A stretch of 64,000 nucleotides of DNA, taken from contig NZ_QEHR01000004.1 of assembly GCF_003095375.1 (NCBI RefSeq), forward strand, positions 124,001 to 188,000. The letters are read 5' to 3'. The DNA comes from Marixanthomonas spongiae (lineage in GTDB: Bacteria; Bacteroidota; Bacteroidia; Flavobacteriales; Flavobacteriaceae). Positions within the stretch are counted from its first letter, which is position 1, and the number at the start of each line of letters is the position of its first letter. Positions 2,368 through 23,987 of the stretch are shown piece after piece. The position numbers and the translations under genes are program-made. The notes beneath the pieces are model-generated. The model did not search any database and had not been told where the DNA came from. It worked only from the letters and a program-made list of their open reading frames with translations.

Positions 2368-3225
2368 CTATTTGCTTTTCAGCTCTTTTTTGAAGCAATA
2401 TATGTGCGAAGAATACTCTTTTGATTTCAAAGCGCGTATATTTGACCACAACCCTATTCCAAAAGCTTTTAAGGAAAATTTAGCTCCCGTTTTATATTTT
2501 TCTGAAAGCAAGCTCACATAAAACGAATCGAACAGCATTGGTTTTATTTTTATTAATTCGAGATTTTCTGAAAAAAGTTTCGCCATACTCACTTTTGAAA
2601 AATGCCAAAGGTGTCGTGGTACATCATAAGCCGCCCAAAATTCTTTATAATGTTTTGCGTCGTACGATTTATAATTGGGTACAGCAATTAAAAGAATCCC
2701 TCCAGGTTTCAACAGCTGTTCTATTTGGGTTATTGCTTCGTGTAGCTTTGGAATATGTTCCAAAACATGCCAAAGGGTAATTACGTCAAATTTTTGACCG
2801 GCGAATTCTGTGAAAGATTCCTTTAGCGTTATTCCCTTTTCTTCTGAAATAGTCCTGGCTTTTTTATTGGGTTCGGCACCATATATTTCCCAGCCTTTTT
2901 CTGAAGCTTTTTTTAAAAACTCCCCAGTACCGGCACCAATATCCAAAAGTGAACCTGACCCTTGGTTTAGTTTTGTGATGAGCCCAATTTTCTTTTTGAG
3001 GGCTCTTTGTTTTACTTTCTGGTACAAAAACGGAAGCAATCCATTTTCTGAATCGGTATGCGAAATGTAGGCATCGCTTTCGTAATAATCAGAAAGATTT
3101 TCTGCAGCAGGTTGTGGCGTTGTGACCAACATATCAAATTTGGCATCGAACACCAACTGAAAAGATTCCCCTGACACAAGAAAATCTTTTGTGGTTAAAT
3201 AGGCTGATTTTTGGTTGTTTTTCAA
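2368..3225 (-). CDS. Class I SAM-dependent methyltransferase
   Basis: Probable soluble methyltransferase of the Methyltransf_23/UbiG-like group; the substrate is unknown. Motif I is LLDIGAGTG at residues 93-101, motif II falls at IYGAEPNKKA, and LWHVLEHI plus LLKPGGILLIAVPN are the usual post-motif segments. An N-terminal extension (about 90 residues, SGESFQLVFDAKFDMLVTTPQP) resembles the zinc-ribbon-like leader of related proteins but has no cysteines. The frame opens with TTG at 3225; the next Met is at residue 32, inside what looks like the conserved extension, so the TTG start is kept. It is convergent with holB. Confidence 0.85.
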   Translation of the reverse strand: MKNNQKSAYLTTKDFLVSGESFQLVFDAKFDMLVTTPQPAAENLSDYYESDAYISHTDSENGLLPFLYQKVKQRALKKKIGLITKLNQGSGSLLDIGAGTGEFLKKASEKGWEIYGAEPNKKARTISEEKGITLKESFTEFAGQKFDVITLWHVLEHIPKLHEAITQIEQLLKPGGILLIAVPNYKSYDAKHYKEFWAAYDVPRHLWHFSKVSMAKLFSENLELIKIKPMLFDSFYVSLLSEKYKTGAKFSLKAFGIGLWSNIRALKSKEYSSHIYCFKKELKSK

Positions 3226-3470: not shown

Positions 3471-3486
3471 CGTTCCACGTGAAACA
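3471..3486. promoter_or_regulatory. parS-like ParB binding site, downstream of mnmG
   Basis: CGTTCCACGTGAAACA matches the bacterial parS consensus TGTTnCACGTGAAACA at all positions except the first. It sits just past the mnmG stop codon in non-coding DNA. ParB binds such 16-bp palindromes near the origin. A second, better copy lies upstream of mnmG. Confidence 0.75.
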
Positions 3487-3492
3487 CACACC

Positions 3493-5364
3493 CTAACGTC
3501 CCATATACACAAGCATTACTGAAATATCATTGGGCGAAACACCGCTAATGCGCGAGGCCTGTGATACCGTTGCAGGCTGGATATGTTTTAATTTTTCCAT
3601 GGCTTCATACGAGAGGGACTTCAGTTTTGTATAATCAAAATTCTCTGGGATTTTAATGCCTTCCAGCCTATTTAATTTATCTGCATTGTTCTTTTCTTTT
3701 TCAATATAACCCGCATATTTAATCTGGATTTCGGTTTGTTGTAACACTTCACTATCCAGATTGTGCGTTTCAATATAATGCTCCACCTCTTCGATCTTTC
3801 GCATATCGTTCATATCGATTTCAGGTCTTGAAAACATCTTGACCATTTTATCGCTTTGTTTTACAGGCGCAGAATTGTTTTCCTTTAAAATGGGATTTGC
3901 TACTTCATCGCTCACACTGGTATCTTTAAAAAACTGAACAAAAGCTTCCGATTGTTCTCTCTTCTCCTCCATTCTTTGAAGGCGTTTTTCAGAAGCCAAA
4001 CCAATTTCATATGATTTTGGTGTCAACCTAAAATCGGCATTATCTTGTCTAAGCAAGGTTCTGTATTCCGCTCTGGAGGTAAACATTCGGTACGGCTCTT
4101 CAGTTCCTTTGGTAATTAAGTCGTCTATCAACACGCCGATATACGCTTCGTTCCGTTGAAGGGTAAATGGCGCTTTTTCATGCACTTTTAAATGGGCATT
4201 TATACCGGCCATTATTCCTTGCGAAGCAGCTTCTTCATATCCGGTTGTACCATTTATCTGTCCTGCAAAAAACAATCCTGAGACAAGTTTGGTTTCCAAG
4301 GTATGTTTTAGTTGCGTAGGCGGAAAATAATCGTATTCAATAGCATAACCCGGACGGAAGAATTTTACGTTTTTAAAGCCATCACACTGCTGCAAGGCTT
4401 TAAACTGAATGTCTTCTGGAAGGGATGTTGAAAACCCGTTCACGTAATATTCAACCGTGTTCCAGCCTTCAGGTTCTACAAACAATTGATGCCTGTTTTT
4501 ATCGGCGAACCGGTTTATTTTGTCTTCTATGGAAGGGCAATATCTTGGACCGACACTGTCAATAGCACCGTTGAACATGGGAGAACGGTCAAAGCCCTCG
4601 CGTAAAATATCATGGACCAAGGTACTGGTGTGCGACATGTAACAATCCCGCTGTTGGCTTAACGGACTCGTTTCGTCGGAATATGAAAACTTCTCCGGAA
4701 TTTCATCACCCGGTTGGACAGTCATTTTAGAAAAATCTAACGAACGGCCATCGACCCGCGGCGGCGTTCCGGTTTTCATTCTGCCCGATTCGAAGCCCAA
4801 ATCGATGAGGTCTTTTGTAATTCCGGTGGCGGCACGTTCACCTGCCCGGCCCCCACCAAATTGCTTTTCACCAATATGGATCAATCCGTTTAAAAAAGTT
4901 CCGTTTGTCAATATAACCGATTTGGATTTAATGGTTAGCCCCAAAGACGTTTTTACACCCACAATTGTTTCGCCTTCTACCAAAATACCAGAAACCATTT
5001 CTTGGTAAAAATCAAGATTGGGTGTTTGCTCCAACATAGTTCTCCACGATTCAGAGAAACGCATGCGGTCACTTTGCACCCTTGGACTCCACATGGCTGG
5101 ACCTTTCGATTTGTTCAACATCTTAAATTGAATGGCCGACTTATCTGAAACAATTCCACTATATCCGCCAAGGGCATCGATTTCACGAATAATCTGTCCT
5201 TTAGCAATACCACCCATAGCCGGATTGCAAGACATCTGTGCAATGTTTTGTAAGTTCATGGTAATCAGCAATGTTTTTGAACCCAAATTGGCAGCGGCAG
5301 CGGCAGCTTCAGACCCAGCGTGACCGGCACCAACCACTATAACATCATATACTTTTTCAAACAT
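3493..5364 (-). CDS. mnmG: tRNA U34 carboxymethylaminomethyl synthesis protein MnmG (GidA)
   Basis: FAD-dependent enzyme that, with MnmE, modifies wobble uridine 34 of certain tRNAs in the cytosol. The N-terminal dinucleotide-binding loop is VVGAGHAGSEAAAAAANLG (about 10-28), followed by the CNPAMGGIAKGQ segment with its conserved cysteine. The C-terminus has the helical domain with YAGYIEKE and SRISGVSPNDISVM. Length 623 residues is normal. The gene is bracketed by two parS-like sites only a few bases beyond its stop and about 20 bases before its start. mnmG is an origin-proximal gene in many bacteria. Confidence 0.98.
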   Translation of the reverse strand: MFEKVYDVIVVGAGHAGSEAAAAAANLGSKTLLITMNLQNIAQMSCNPAMGGIAKGQIIREIDALGGYSGIVSDKSAIQFKMLNKSKGPAMWSPRVQSDRMRFSESWRTMLEQTPNLDFYQEMVSGILVEGETIVGVKTSLGLTIKSKSVILTNGTFLNGLIHIGEKQFGGGRAGERAATGITKDLIDLGFESGRMKTGTPPRVDGRSLDFSKMTVQPGDEIPEKFSYSDETSPLSQQRDCYMSHTSTLVHDILREGFDRSPMFNGAIDSVGPRYCPSIEDKINRFADKNRHQLFVEPEGWNTVEYYVNGFSTSLPEDIQFKALQQCDGFKNVKFFRPGYAIEYDYFPPTQLKHTLETKLVSGLFFAGQINGTTGYEEAASQGIMAGINAHLKVHEKAPFTLQRNEAYIGVLIDDLITKGTEEPYRMFTSRAEYRTLLRQDNADFRLTPKSYEIGLASEKRLQRMEEKREQSEAFVQFFKDTSVSDEVANPILKENNSAPVKQSDKMVKMFSRPEIDMNDMRKIEEVEHYIETHNLDSEVLQQTEIQIKYAGYIEKEKNNADKLNRLEGIKIPENFDYTKLKSLSYEAMEKLKHIQPATVSQASRISGVSPNDISVMLVYMGR

Positions 5365-5384
5365 AAAATCTATTTATTTTGTAT

Positions 5385-5400
5385 TGTTCCACGTGGAACA
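5385..5400. promoter_or_regulatory. parS site (perfect palindrome) upstream of mnmG
   Basis: TGTTCCACGTGGAACA is a perfect 16-bp palindrome and a canonical parS sequence. It lies 20 bases upstream of the mnmG start. With the copy at 3471-3486 it suggests a centromere-like ParB loading region. No parA or parB gene is in the window. Confidence 0.85.
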
Positions 5401-5612
5401 TTTCGGCTTCGCTCAGTATCACATTTTGGTTAAGAGAGCGTTTTCTGTCTTCCGTGTGTGTGTTCAGCTGCTTATAAGTTTATAAAAATGATGACAAGCT
5501 GTACCACTCACGCAGTATAACCGAAGTATACTGTTTTTTAAAATGGGCGCAAAGATAGTTAAATTACTAATAATCAGCAAGTTAAAAATATAAGGCTTTA
5601 TGAATCAGGTAT

Positions 5613-6029
5613 TTATAAAAAAGGGCGCTTTTTTAAGGCCTCATTTTCTTTGATGCGCATGAGGGATGCTTCGTCTTCGGTTTTGTCCTTATAGCCACAA
5701 TAATGCAAGATGCCGTGGATTATGACGCGGTGCAATTCGTTTTTAAAAGAAACGTTGTAGTGATCTGCATTTTCCTTTACCCGTTCTATTGAGATATAGA
5801 TTTCGCCATTGATTTGTTTTCCCAAAGAATTGTCAAAGCTTATAATGTCCGTCAAAGTATCGTGGTTCAAAAATTGAACATTTAATTTATGCAAATATTG
5901 GTCGTCGCAGAACACGTAAACAAGCTCCCCCACCTTGTATCCTTCTTCAATGATGGTGTTTGTGATCCATTCTGCAATTTGCTTACTGTCCGTTAGCTCA
6001 AAATCGGTTTCAGCATAAAATTCAATCAT
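5613..6029 (-). CDS. ybeY: Endoribonuclease YbeY (16S rRNA maturation)
   Basis: Metal-dependent RNase needed for 16S rRNA processing and ribosome quality control. The motif HGILHYCGYKDK holds His105 and His109, but the position of the usual third histidine (GYDH) is Asp115; this variant is, as I recall, common in Bacteroidetes. Length 138 residues is normal. Its start overlaps the last 8 bases of the DUF4175 gene, so the two are probably translationally coupled. Confidence 0.93.
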   Translation of the reverse strand: MIEFYAETDFELTDSKQIAEWITNTIIEEGYKVGELVYVFCDDQYLHKLNVQFLNHDTLTDIISFDNSLGKQINGEIYISIERVKENADHYNVSFKNELHRVIIHGILHYCGYKDKTEDEASLMRIKENEALKKRPFL

Positions 6030-10495: not shown

Positions 10496-12043
10496 ATGAG
10501 TGATATAATGAATACGAAGGCTAAAGATTCCCGCCTTCGCGGGAAAGTGCGGGTACGTTTTGCCCCAAGTCCAACGGGGCCGTTACATATTGGTGGTGTC
10601 CGCACGGCATTGTTCAACTATCTGTTTGCCAAAAAACACGAGGGCGATTTTGTGTTGCGTATAGAAGATACCGATCAAGCCCGCTATGTGGAAGGTGCTG
10701 AAAAATATATTGTTGAAGCGCTTAACTGGTTAAATATCCCATTTGATGAAGGCCCTGGAAAAGATGGGGGTTTCGGGCCGTACCGCCAAAGTGAGCGCAA
10801 GCATGTGTACCGTGAATATGCCAATAAATTACTTGCCTCAGGTCACGCCTATTACGCTTTTGACACGGCCGAAGAACTTACCCAGCACCGAAAAGACCAC
10901 GAAGCCCAAGGGAAAACCTTTATCTACAATTGGCACAATAGATTAAAACTGAAAAACTCTTTATCCCTTTCAAAAGAAGAAGTGCAGCAAAAACTGAATG
11001 CCGGCGAAGATTATGTAATCCGGTTTAAATCGCCTGAAAACGAAACACTATTTTTAAAAGATATGATCCGTGGCGGAATGCAGATCGATACCAACATCCT
11101 GGACGATAAAGTACTCTTTAAAAGCGATGGCATGCCGACCTACCATTTGGCCAATATTGTGGATGACCATTTAATGGAAATTACGCATGTAATCCGTGGT
11201 GAGGAATGGTTGCCTTCCTTGGCATTGCACGTTTTATTGTACCAAGCTTTTGGTTGGCAAGCACCAAAATTCGCACATCTACCCTTGATTATGAAACCGG
11301 TTGGCAAAGGGAAACTGAGCAAGCGGGATGGCGACAAAATGGGCTTTCCTGTATTTCCGTTGGAATGGAAAACCGTTGGTGACGAAGTGTTTTCAGGCTA
11401 TCGTGAAGATGGCTACCTGGCCGAAGCAGTCGTGAACATGCTGGCGTTATTGGGCTGGAACCCGGGAACGGAACAAGAGCTATTCAGTTTGGAAGAATTG
11501 GTCCAGGCGTTCGATTTAAGCCGTGTCAACAAGGCAGGGGCAAAATTTGACCCGGATAAAACAAAATGGTTTCAGCATCATTATCTACAAGAAGTTGACA
11601 ACGGAATTTTAACGGGACAGTTTAAAGAATTGCTGAAAAACAAAGGAGTTGAAACTTCCCTCCCGTTGGAGACCATTGTTGCCCTGTTAAAAGAGCGCGC
11701 CACGTTTGTAGAAGATATCTGGGAACAAGGCAGTTTCTTTTTTGAAGCACCCAAAAATTATGATGAAAAGGCTTCAAAAAAAGCCTTTAAAGAAGGTACC
11801 GGCGAGATTCTTCAAAACGTGATTTCGCTTATGGAGGAAGTAGACGATTTTTCCGCAGCGAATCTTTCCGACAAAATAAAAGGATGGATTACCGATAATG
11901 ACATAGGCTTCGGAAAAGTGATGATGCCGTTGCGACTTTCGCTTGTTGGGGAAATGAAAGGCCCTGATGTGTTTGTGATTGCCTCGCTGCTCGGGAAAGA
12001 AGAAAGTATTGAGCGAATTGAAAGGGCGGTTGCATCAATTTAA
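10496..12043 (+). CDS. gltX: Glutamyl-tRNA synthetase
   Basis: Class I synthetase charging tRNA-Glu in the cytosol. The HIGH motif appears as PTGPLHIGG (about 27-34) and KMSKS as KLSKRDGDK (about 272-280). Length 515 residues is normal. Two in-frame ATGs (10496, 10508) are possible. The first 17 codons do not look like the usual short leader before VRVRFAPSPTG: they are partly encoded by an 18-base perfect palindrome (10528-10545), as though a REP-like hairpin had been inserted in frame. The stop overlaps the convergent outer-membrane gene by 4 bases. Confidence 0.97.
   Translation: MSDIMNTKAKDSRLRGKVRVRFAPSPTGPLHIGGVRTALFNYLFAKKHEGDFVLRIEDTDQARYVEGAEKYIVEALNWLNIPFDEGPGKDGGFGPYRQSERKHVYREYANKLLASGHAYYAFDTAEELTQHRKDHEAQGKTFIYNWHNRLKLKNSLSLSKEEVQQKLNAGEDYVIRFKSPENETLFLKDMIRGGMQIDTNILDDKVLFKSDGMPTYHLANIVDDHLMEITHVIRGEEWLPSLALHVLLYQAFGWQAPKFAHLPLIMKPVGKGKLSKRDGDKMGFPVFPLEWKTVGDEVFSGYREDGYLAEAVVNMLALLGWNPGTEQELFSLEELVQAFDLSRVNKAGAKFDPDKTKWFQHHYLQEVDNGILTGQFKELLKNKGVETSLPLETIVALLKERATFVEDIWEQGSFFFEAPKNYDEKASKKAFKEGTGEILQNVISLMEEVDDFSAANLSDKIKGWITDNDIGFGKVMMPLRLSLVGEMKGPDVFVIASLLGKEESIERIERAVASI
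10528..10545. repeat. REP-like palindrome inside gltX 5' end
   Basis: TTCCCGCCTTCGCGGGAA forms a perfect 7-bp stem with a CTTC loop. Similar hairpins occur between genes in flavobacterial genomes. Here it lies inside the coding sequence and contributes residues SRLRG to the N-terminal extension of GltX. Confidence 0.7.
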
Positions 12044-15177: not shown

Positions 15178-16857
15178 CTATCCTGATATTTTTCCCCAAG
15201 AATCCCGTAGCGGAACCGTACGGTTAAAAACGATTTTTTCTTCGGAAGAATCTTTGTCCACCACAAAATAACCCAATCGTTGAAACTGGACTTTATCCTC
15301 CACTTTTAAATTTTTCAAACTTGGCTCTGCATAAGCAGTAATAACCTCTAATGAATTGGGATTGATAAACTCCATGAAATCTTTTTCTTTGTCGGCATCT
15401 GGGATTGCTTCGGTAAATAAACGGTCGTACAGCCTAACTTCAACAGGGAGTGCATCTTTAATCGAAACCCAATGCAGGGTGCCTTTTACTTTGCGTTTAG
15501 AGGCTTCGCTGCCACTGCCGCTTTTGCTATCGGGATCGTAGGTGCAATGGATTTCGGTGATGTTGCCTTCGGCATCTTTAACCACGCTTTCGCCTTTAAT
15601 GATATACGCATTTTTTAACCGGACTTCTTTGTTTAACGTCAACCGGAAAAACTTTCGGTTGGCTTCTTCTTTAAAATCTTCGCGTTCAATATACAGCTCG
15701 CGCGAAAACGGAATGTCGCGGTAGCCGGCGTTTTCATCTTCGGGATTGTTTTCAGCCTCGAGCATTTCGGTTTCACCTTCGGGATAATTGGTAATGACCA
15801 GTTTTATAGGGTTCAAGACAGTGAATACCCGTGGGGCACGTTTATTGAGGTCTTCGCGTACATTGAACTCCAAATGCGATACATCAATCACGTTTTCACG
15901 TTTGCCCACCCCAATGCTGTTGACAAAGTTTTTGATGGATTCTGGTGTGTAACCTCTTCTTCTTAATCCTGAAATAGTAGGCATCCTGGGGTCGTCCCAG
16001 CCGTTTACAATACCTTCTTCAACTAATCGAGCCAATTTGCGTTTGCTCACCACTGTATGGCTTAGGTTTCTACGGGCAAATTCGCGCTGTTTGGGGCGCA
16101 AGGTATTTTCTTCATGCACTTGGTCCAAAAACCAATTGTAAAGCTCTCTATGCGGTAAAAATTCAAGCGTACAGAGCGAATGCGACACCCGTTCTATGTA
16201 GTCGCTTTCGCCATGGGTCCAATCGTACATTGGGAAAATTTTCCAGTCGGTGCCCGTTCTATGATGGCTTTTGTGCAATACCCGGTACATAACCGGGTCG
16301 CGCATCAACATATTTCCAGACGCCATATCGATTTTGGCCCGTAACGTATGTTTGCCTTCTGGCAGTTCGCCATTTTTCATTTTTTCAAATAAATCTAAAC
16401 TTTCATCAACCGGACGATTTCTGTACGGGCTTTCTGTTCCAGGTTCGTTTGGGGTTCCTTTTTGCTTGGCGATTTCTTCGGAAGATTGCGAATCGACATA
16501 CGCTTTTCCATCTTTTATAAGTTGTACGGCCCAATCGTACAATTCCTGAAAATAATCGGATGCATAGCATTCTTTGGCCCATTCAAAGCCCAACCACGAG
16601 ATATCGCGTTTTATGGCATCGACAAATTCCTGTTCTTCTTTTATGGGGTTGGTATCGTCAAAACGTAGGTTTACCGGGGCGTTATAGCGTTTTCCTAAAC
16701 CAAAATTCAAGCAAATGGAAGACGCATGGCCAATGTGCAAATACCCGTTGGGCTCTGGTGGGAACCGAAACCGAAGTTGATCTGGGGTATGGGTTTTGGT
16801 AAGGTCTTCTTCTATAATATGCTCGATGAAATTAAGCGGTGCTTCTTCTTTTGCCAT
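15178..16857 (-). CDS. glnS: Glutaminyl-tRNA synthetase
   Basis: Class I synthetase charging tRNA-Gln directly. HIGH is at 41-44 (PNGYLHIGHAS) and the KMSKS loop reads VVSKRKL (about 266-272). The N-terminal TRFPPEPNGY-type segment, GTDWKIFPMYDWTHG and the C-terminal beta-barrel anticodon domain (EEKIVFNRTVPLRDSWGK) are present; 559 residues is normal. Having both GlnRS and GltX in one window argues against a need for the GatCAB indirect route for Gln. Confidence 0.97.
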   Translation of the reverse strand: MAKEEAPLNFIEHIIEEDLTKTHTPDQLRFRFPPEPNGYLHIGHASSICLNFGLGKRYNAPVNLRFDDTNPIKEEQEFVDAIKRDISWLGFEWAKECYASDYFQELYDWAVQLIKDGKAYVDSQSSEEIAKQKGTPNEPGTESPYRNRPVDESLDLFEKMKNGELPEGKHTLRAKIDMASGNMLMRDPVMYRVLHKSHHRTGTDWKIFPMYDWTHGESDYIERVSHSLCTLEFLPHRELYNWFLDQVHEENTLRPKQREFARRNLSHTVVSKRKLARLVEEGIVNGWDDPRMPTISGLRRRGYTPESIKNFVNSIGVGKRENVIDVSHLEFNVREDLNKRAPRVFTVLNPIKLVITNYPEGETEMLEAENNPEDENAGYRDIPFSRELYIEREDFKEEANRKFFRLTLNKEVRLKNAYIIKGESVVKDAEGNITEIHCTYDPDSKSGSGSEASKRKVKGTLHWVSIKDALPVEVRLYDRLFTEAIPDADKEKDFMEFINPNSLEVITAYAEPSLKNLKVEDKVQFQRLGYFVVDKDSSEEKIVFNRTVPLRDSWGKISG

Positions 16858-22792: not shown

Positions 22793-23032
22793 ATGGAGAA
22801 TTTTGTGATCATAGCAACCTTTACCTACCAGAGCGAATATGCCGTCTTGGCCTTGCTTTTAGAGCAACACGATATCCCGCACGTATTTTTAAACGAAACG
22901 ATGGCCAGTGTTTTTCCCTTCTACTCAAATGCTATTGGCGGCATTAGGTTACAAGTGCATAAAAAGGACGAAGCCCGTGCCAAGAAAATTATCGAGGATT
23001 TTTTCAATACGTCAAAAATGCGGATTGTTTGA
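22793..23032 (+). CDS. DUF2007 family small protein
   Basis: A 79-residue protein, MENFVIIATFTYQSEYAVLALLLEQHDIPHVFLNETM..., which matches the DUF2007 pattern (putative signal-transducing, GlnB-like ferredoxin fold). Function unknown. It is the last gene before the gene-free 23.0-23.6 kb gap. Confidence 0.85.
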   Translation: MENFVIIATFTYQSEYAVLALLLEQHDIPHVFLNETMASVFPFYSNAIGGIRLQVHKKDEARAKKIIEDFFNTSKMRIV

Positions 23033-23555
23033 GTTTTCAACCTTATCAACAATATAATAATCATCTTTTTTCTTTTTTAAAATTTTAAAATAAATAATGA
23101 TGGTTATTATAGGCTGTTAATATGTAGCATAACTTTTTGAAGTTTTATTTTGTTTTTAAGTTATCGATTGTTTTGTACCAGTTGTTAACAAATTTTTAAG
23201 AACGTTTAAGGTTGAAAAATAACAACATAAAGACTAATATCAACAGCTGTCAACAATCCTTGTTAACAACGTATTTTTAATATGTATTTCTGAAATGGCT
23301 GTTTGCAACCAACATTTTATTGCTCATAACTCGCTTAAAAAAGATGGACTTAAAATTTGCTTTTGAATATTTAAAAACCATATTTAAATTTCGATTCAAT
23401 TCCGCAACTTTATTTTTATTTAACTATCAACAATTATAAACATAGTTGTTAACTTTAATGTGAAGGAATCTTTAACAAAAGGTAACCATTTGATTTTTAA
23501 TTCTAAAGGTTAATTTACTCAATATTACCCCTATCTTTGTAGTAAAACAAACACC
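23033..23555. other. AT-rich gene-free gap; candidate replication origin (oriC)
   Basis: No gene is visible in 523 bases. The gap holds a cluster of related 9-10-mers: TTATCAACA (23043-23051), ATATCAACA (23237-23245), CTGTCAACA (23247-23255), CTATCAACA (23424-23432), two perfect TTGTTAACAA palindromes (23182-23191, 23260-23269) and GTTGTTAAC (23445-23453). TTATCAACA differs from the DnaA box TTATCCACA by one base. AT-only tracts (about 23077-23100, 23365-23400) could be unwinding elements. Mostly minus-strand large genes lie left and rpiB and others diverge right. Two parS-like sites lie 18-20 kb away. The role is inferred. Confidence 0.5.
23532..23539 (+). promoter_or_regulatory. -7 promoter box for rpiB
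   Basis: TATCTTTG fits TAnnTTTG, 16 bases upstream of the rpiB ATG. No good -33 element at the preferred spacing. Confidence 0.55.
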
Positions 23556-23987
23556 ATGAAAATAGCCATAGGAAACGACCACGCCGGGACCGAATACAAA
23601 AAAACGATTGTATCTTATTTAAAATCAAAAAATTACGAAGTTATTAACTACGGGACCGATAGCGAAGAAAGTGTAGATTATCCAGACTTTGTTCACCCAG
23701 TTGCAGACGATGTGGAAAACCAAAAAGTAGATTTTGGAATCATTATCTGCGGAAGCGGAAACGGAGCAAATATGACAGCCAATAAGCACCAAAAAGTACG
23801 TTCGGCTTTATGTTGGACCAAAGAAATTACCGCTTTGGCCAGGGAGCACAACGATGCCAACATTTTAAGTATTCCTGCGCGTTTTACCAGCGAGCCCCAA
23901 GCCTTGGAGATGGTAAAAACGTTTCTTTCAACAAAATTTGAAGGCGGTCGCCACAAACGTAGGGTTGACAAGATAGCTTGCTCCTAA
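23556..23987 (+). CDS. rpiB: Ribose-5-phosphate isomerase B
   Basis: Interconverts ribose-5-phosphate and ribulose-5-phosphate in the pentose phosphate pathway. GNDHAGTEYK (6-15) and the active-site segment IICGSGNGANMTANK with Cys65 define the RpiB/LacAB family, followed by RSALCW and ARFTSEPQALEMVKTFLSTKFEGGRH. Length 143 is normal. The CDF gene follows 15 bases later. Confidence 0.96.
   Translation: MKIAIGNDHAGTEYKKTIVSYLKSKNYEVINYGTDSEESVDYPDFVHPVADDVENQKVDFGIIICGSGNGANMTANKHQKVRSALCWTKEITALAREHNDANILSIPARFTSEPQALEMVKTFLSTKFEGGRHKRRVDKIACS

Follow-up and report, generated by a model that had tools for sequence, protein, structure and literature searches.

What are the two 16-bp palindromes that flank mnmG in Marixanthomonas spongiae, and do they mark the centromere of its chromosome? 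Both lie in a 64,000-nucleotide stretch of contig 4 (NZ_QEHR01000004.1, positions 124,001 to 188,000), referred to here as the window, from a draft genome of 32 contigs that is 99.74% complete. The gene mnmG (gidA; 3493–5364, minus strand; 623 aa, TIGR00136, E 1.3e-255) is bracketed by the two sites. Site 1 (5385–5400), the perfect palindrome TGTTCCACGTGGAACA, was found 20 bp before the mnmG start codon, where an earlier note on this DNA had placed it, and site 2 (3471–3486; CGTTCCACGTGAAACA) lies 6 bp beyond the stop codon. The earlier note had described the latter as a one-mismatch copy just past the end of mnmG; the position is right, and the mismatch count holds against the degenerate consensus TGTTNCACGTGNAACA, although relative to the perfect copy TGTTCCACGTGGAACA there are two mismatches.

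By the usual definition of parS, a 16-bp palindrome matching TGTTNCACGTGNAACA, the locus thus holds one exact site and one with a single mismatch. Matches at up to three mismatches number 3 in the window against 0.24 expected, and three or more were obtained in 1 of 100 shuffles. No other sites in the 3.4-Mb genome come within one mismatch of the degenerate TGTTNCACGTGNAACA, and these two are 1.9 kb apart; when two mismatches are allowed the count (7, versus 16 for the reversed-pattern control) is at noise level. In the draft genome the sites are therefore clustered rather than chromosome-wide. The earlier note had predicted that good sites would gather at this locus, and the genome's only two do so, while the many equally good, evenly spread sites that would have told against it are absent from the draft genome. 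Both palindromes are very probably canonical parS. Our overall reading, to which we assign a probability of about 0.9, is that the pair are the main chromosome's centromere sites, located in its origin region some 18 kb from a candidate oriC beside rpiB, and that they serve ParABS segregation.

In the known ParABS systems, such as those of Bacillus subtilis Spo0J and Caulobacter ParB, chromosomal parS is likewise a 16-bp TGTTNCACGTGNAACA present in one to few copies in the origin region, and the M. spongiae genome likewise has a ParA-ParB pair, with a ParB that keeps the parS-reading residues. The earlier note was correct that no parAB genes are in the window: the genome's single ParB-family protein (299 aa) is encoded next to a ParA gene on contig 5. 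It contains HTH_ParB, ParB_N and ParB_C domains, and its best sequence matches are solved ParB proteins. In Caulobacter numbering, assigned by motif position rather than by alignment to the Caulobacter chain, it keeps Q162, G170, K171, R173, N178, G201 and R204. PMC7383237 gives R173 and G201 as invariant among ParB proteins and altered in Noc, counts S172 as conserved in ParB, and describes positions 179 and 184 as variable among ParBs and nearly always K in Noc. The M. spongiae protein departs from the Caulobacter sequence at S172, which is N, and has Y at 179 and K at 184, the latter as in Noc. With the exception of S172N, the genome encodes a cognate ParB with the parS-specific HTH residues.

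By analogy with the known ParABS mechanism, this ParB, made together with ParA from another contig, would bind and load at both sites as a CTP-dependent clamp. The clamp would then slide across mnmG and its neighbours and build a partition complex, and ParA would carry that complex into the daughter cells shortly after replication of the region.

We compared the mnmG loci of 80 named relatives, the top 80 among at least 589, with titles that are mostly Flavobacteriaceae or Flavobacteriales. A site with no more than one mismatch is present within 600 bp upstream of mnmG in all 80 loci and downstream in 71, so that 71 of 80 have sites on both sides, and an exact site occurs on one side or the other in 77. 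Away from mnmG, the 1.44 Mb of these loci contain no exact sites and 20 one-mismatch sites, 12 of which are the same recurrent word; the reversed-pattern control gave no matches in the 80 loci. A site just before the mnmG start codon, and a pair of which both members touch one gene, would also be expected if the palindromes were operators for a transcription factor controlling mnmG. However, the distance from parS to the start codon ranges from 6 to 453 bp among the 80 loci, some of which have as many as six upstream sites, and 71 of the 80 have a second site beyond the stop codon. Furthermore, the sequence is that of the universal parS, in a genome that encodes a ParB with parS-reading residues. 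We consider operators highly unlikely.

The same collection of sites bears on whether the palindromes act in RNA, as hairpins in the mnmG transcript that serve as a terminator or stability element. Both window sites are inverted repeats outside the mnmG coding sequence, as such hairpins could be. However, among 185 sites read along the mnmG sense strand, C-A occupies positions 5 and 12 in 39 and T-G in 37, and this equal use of a non-pairing combination indicates that DNA is recognized, not an RNA hairpin. Rfam at the gathering threshold finds just two tRNAs in the window. Hairpins are scarcely credible on these grounds.

The association with mnmG extends across the family and the phylum. An exact site is present in 107 of 120 family genomes (reversed control, 0 of 120). 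Placement covers the 45 of these 107 that were listed, the other 62 being unplaced, and in 44 of the 45 the site is within 600 bp of mnmG, with genome G020 as the exception. Thirteen family genomes lack an exact site. Nine of these carry a one-mismatch site at mnmG; the other four do not: a one-mismatch parS is absent genome-wide in G004 and G014, and absent at mnmG in G107 and G032. The mnmG gene itself gave no match in G004, G032 and G107. G107 is a closed genome in which only a weak parS-like site was seen, far from rpiB, and its centromere may differ from the parS-at-mnmG arrangement.

In the phylum set, 72 of 99 genomes (9 of the 99 belonging to the window's own family) have an exact site. 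The tabulated genomes are the 42 of these 72 that were listed, with 28 unplaced and with the query genome itself and G111 (part of the family table) excluded; 39 of the 42 have a site within 600 bp of mnmG, spread across 11 of the tool's numbered families, and the exceptions are G181, G189 and G143. Leaving out the window's own family (5 of the 42) gives 35 of 37, from 10 families. Of the 27 phylum genomes lacking an exact site, 25 have a one-mismatch site somewhere, but since chance matches elsewhere are frequent by the controls, such sites are informative only at mnmG, where 19 of the 27 have a site of this type within 600 bp and 8 do not.

Is this also the region in which replication starts? 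Cumulative GC skew along contig 4 (378 kb) traces a V that bottoms out at C4:132,218 (window ∼8,218), 2.8 kb from the perfect parS, in agreement with the earlier note's proposal that the sites and the skew minimum should coincide. Genes on this contig are mainly on the minus strand either side of parS, more strongly so on the left. Between the left and the right side of parS, the third-position skew moves from −0.13 to −0.07 in plus-strand genes and from +0.10 to +0.14 in minus-strand genes, and because it rises on both gene strands, the turn at parS is not the product of gene orientation alone, though it is modest.

Ten closed family genomes are concordant. Each was sampled as 10 or 20 stretches of 20 kb to which a first harmonic was fitted, with mnmG as a stand-in for parS, the parS places of G019, G022 and G029 being unlisted. 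With strand-corrected third-position skew, a coarse fit (r2 0.42–0.91), the mean distances from the fitted origin, in half genomes, are 0.08 for mnmG, 0.75 for dnaA and 0.63 for the best parB, and the origin is no more than 0.14 of a half genome from mnmG in all ten. The raw GC skew, with coarser fits still (r2 0.22–0.74), gives corresponding means of 0.12, 0.73 and 0.57, with mnmG within 0.20 in nine of the ten and at 0.26 in G052. Taking the ori domain as the region within 10% of the chromosome either side of the origin, equal to 0.2 of half a genome, both the skew of the M. spongiae contig and the ten closed relatives place parS inside it. The parS-mnmG region is the replication-origin region.

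G020 separates the sites from the gene. Between its three exact parS sites and mnmG there are 278 kb, and rpiB is 43 kb from the sites, which adjoin a 52%-identity relative of the SAM methyltransferase gene (2368–3225, minus strand) that lies downstream of mnmG in the window. Since this cluster is near rpiB and far from mnmG, parS appears to have remained on the side of the origin and not to have followed mnmG. The fitted skew origin of G020, from a poor fit, is at 1.24 Mb, nearer to mnmG (1.28 Mb) than to parS (1.00 Mb) or rpiB (0.95 Mb), and the parS sites are 0.18 (third-position) or 0.27 (raw) of half a genome from it. This genome speaks against operators of mnmG, and also against the idea that parS is kept here because ParB spreading tunes mnmG or ybeY, so that the sites would combine centromere and gene regulation. 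The hugging of the same gene throughout the phylum fits such tuning, and overproduced plasmid ParB is described as able to silence its neighbours (PMC7333895), but with parS away from mnmG in G020 we regard it as unlikely. The earlier note's suggestion that the pair marks the centromere region is supported, with the sites tied to the origin region more than to mnmG as such.

Where within this region might oriC be? An oriC at mnmG was ruled out by the classical DnaA-box measure, as none of the 80 loci has a cluster of TTATCCACA boxes closer than 10 kb to mnmG. The contig's densest 500 bp for TTATCCACA, with 3 within one mismatch, starts at window 23,678, inside rpiB (23556–23987, plus strand; Pfam PF02502). 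Directly before rpiB, an AT-rich intergenic stretch (23030–23495; AT 0.76) that follows a DUF2007 gene (22793–23032, plus strand) contains TYAACA words and a conserved block. The densest TYAACA cluster of contig 4 is located here, at 23,046–23,495, with 11 words in 450 bp (next best 4, mean 0.69); these are counted on both strands and occupy 9 distinct places, two palindromic places being counted twice. None of 2000 dinucleotide shuffles of the region, with words counted in the same way, reached 11. The stretch is 15 kb from the skew minimum and ∼18 kb from mnmG. We infer that the TYAACA words bind DnaA, and on its sequence features we treat the stretch as an oriC candidate.

The relatives offer some comparison for this candidate. 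The rpiB gene was found in 4 of the 80 loci, one of which (L083) is cut off upstream of it, and in all three testable loci, L051, L056 and L073, the densest TYAACA cluster of the locus (7, 10 and 7 words, respectively) is just before rpiB. Seven-word clusters are also seen without rpiB in L081 and L025, and in one sampled stretch, so that by count alone only the M. spongiae and L056 clusters stand out. The sequences upstream of rpiB in M. spongiae and in these three loci share a block ending in GGTTATTATAG. Among checked genomes having mnmG, rpiB is 6–55 kb from it in 20 of 21.

The arrangement also differs from that of Spo0J and Caulobacter ParB. In closed relatives, the distance from the sites to the best parB and to dnaA is on the scale of hundreds of kb up to Mb. 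Neither the best parB (mean 0.61 half genomes) nor dnaA (mean 0.71) is within 0.2 half genome of rpiB in any of 19 closed genomes, a count that excludes G107 (no mnmG match), G021 (two contigs) and the M. spongiae draft, and for which 9 of the 19 lengths are rounded. The ParB distances rest on the best match per genome only; weaker second ParB-like matches are at 0.095 (G097), 0.126 (G029), 0.201 (G019) and 0.299 (G102) half genomes from rpiB, and the genes in G097 and G029 are thus inside the ori domain, with that of G019 at its edge. A par operon in the ori domain is stated as a rule in PMC7022226, as a conserved rather than a defining feature, and unlike this rule the best ParB is outside the ori domain in the 19 closed genomes. 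Further differences are that the sites are fixed around mnmG and that one of them can also encode protein. The next gene upstream of mnmG is ybeY (5613–6029, minus strand; Pfam PF02130), and in 31 of the 80 relatives' loci the upstream parS site encodes the YbeY C-terminus, as an FHV(E/K)-type ending. In the window the end of YbeY is not encoded by parS. FHVEQ-like YbeY endings that match the parS reading were seen in L022, L024, L026, L029 and 27 further loci.

We lean, somewhat hesitantly, towards a split origin in Bacteroidota, with a centromere held fast at both ends of mnmG (in many relatives also within the ybeY frame), an oriC by rpiB, and dnaA and parA-parB far away; in this reading, selection acting on the sites, and not their linkage to the proteins, has preserved how the sites are arranged. 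The weaker second ParB-like matches lower the probability that we give to this. As to how parS came to be here, chromosomal ParBs tend to neighbour gidA, mnmE, gidB and yidC (PMC10653881). The mnmG gene is shared with that neighbourhood, although here only sites, and no par genes, adjoin it. In light of it, parS at mnmG is probably a relic of an ancestral gidA/gidB/parAB origin cluster whose par operon moved away, leaving the sites behind.

Parts of this picture are already published, including an origin at mnmG and an oriC distant from dnaA. Bacteroidetes oriC is reported to be commonly far from dnaA (PMC4755523). In Mariniflexile and Algorimicrobium the origin was placed at mnmG by Ori-Finder and GC skew (PMC11278836, PMC12843772); the text of PMC11278836 has the origin explicitly not at dnaA, although a figure legend contradicts that text, with mnmG as ter and leuB_2/dnaA as oriC. 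The accessible portions of these two reports put oriC at mnmG without mention of parS, whereas here the best oriC-like sequence is by rpiB, 18 kb off. In gut Bacteroidetes, parS clusters together with GC skew mark the origin, not necessarily at dnaA (PMC10197239), as the sites do here; the gene neighbours of those clusters are unnamed in the available text. A search of the literature, with the key parS survey (Livny 2007) outside its scope and with sources available in part, found no phylum-wide pairing of parS with mnmG, no distant par operon in Bacteroidota, no parS read as the end of YbeY and no oriC at rpiB.

In Bacteroidota, parS at mnmG offers a simple, testable way to mark the centromere and the origin region. 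Certain closed records begin at dnaA, far from the fitted origin; in 6 of the 19 closed genomes the dnaA match begins in the first 130 bases. A ParABS system with its main operon outside the ori domain also bears on how important linkage of par genes to parS is. If oriC is indeed at rpiB, the replication and segregation of this phylum could be studied at defined sites.

Several smaller features of the locus were recorded. The Bacteroidetes −7 promoter consensus is TAnnTTTG, and TATCTTTGC (5549–5557, minus strand) is a possible −7 element of mnmG, in which case parS site 1 would be within the mnmG 5′ UTR. In 64 of the 80 loci, against an expected 2.0, a related octamer, ACCTTTGC, is found in the 700 bp preceding mnmG. 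The Flavobacterium loci L079, L080 and L087 have five to six parS-like sites within ∼470 bp upstream of mnmG, and in L079 and L080 there are GTTTCAAGTTT-type repeats near them. Twelve of the 80 loci have the recurrent one-mismatch word mentioned above, TCTTCCACGTGAAACA, downstream of mnmG at distances of 4.5–9.2 kb (at 4.5 kb in L011, 5.5 kb in L024 and 9.2 kb in L019, and in nine further loci); it is probably a coding coincidence, likely inside conserved coding sequence. Elsewhere in the window, two class I Glx-type tRNA synthetase genes (10496–12043 and 15178–16857, both PF00749) are positioned ∼3 kb apart.
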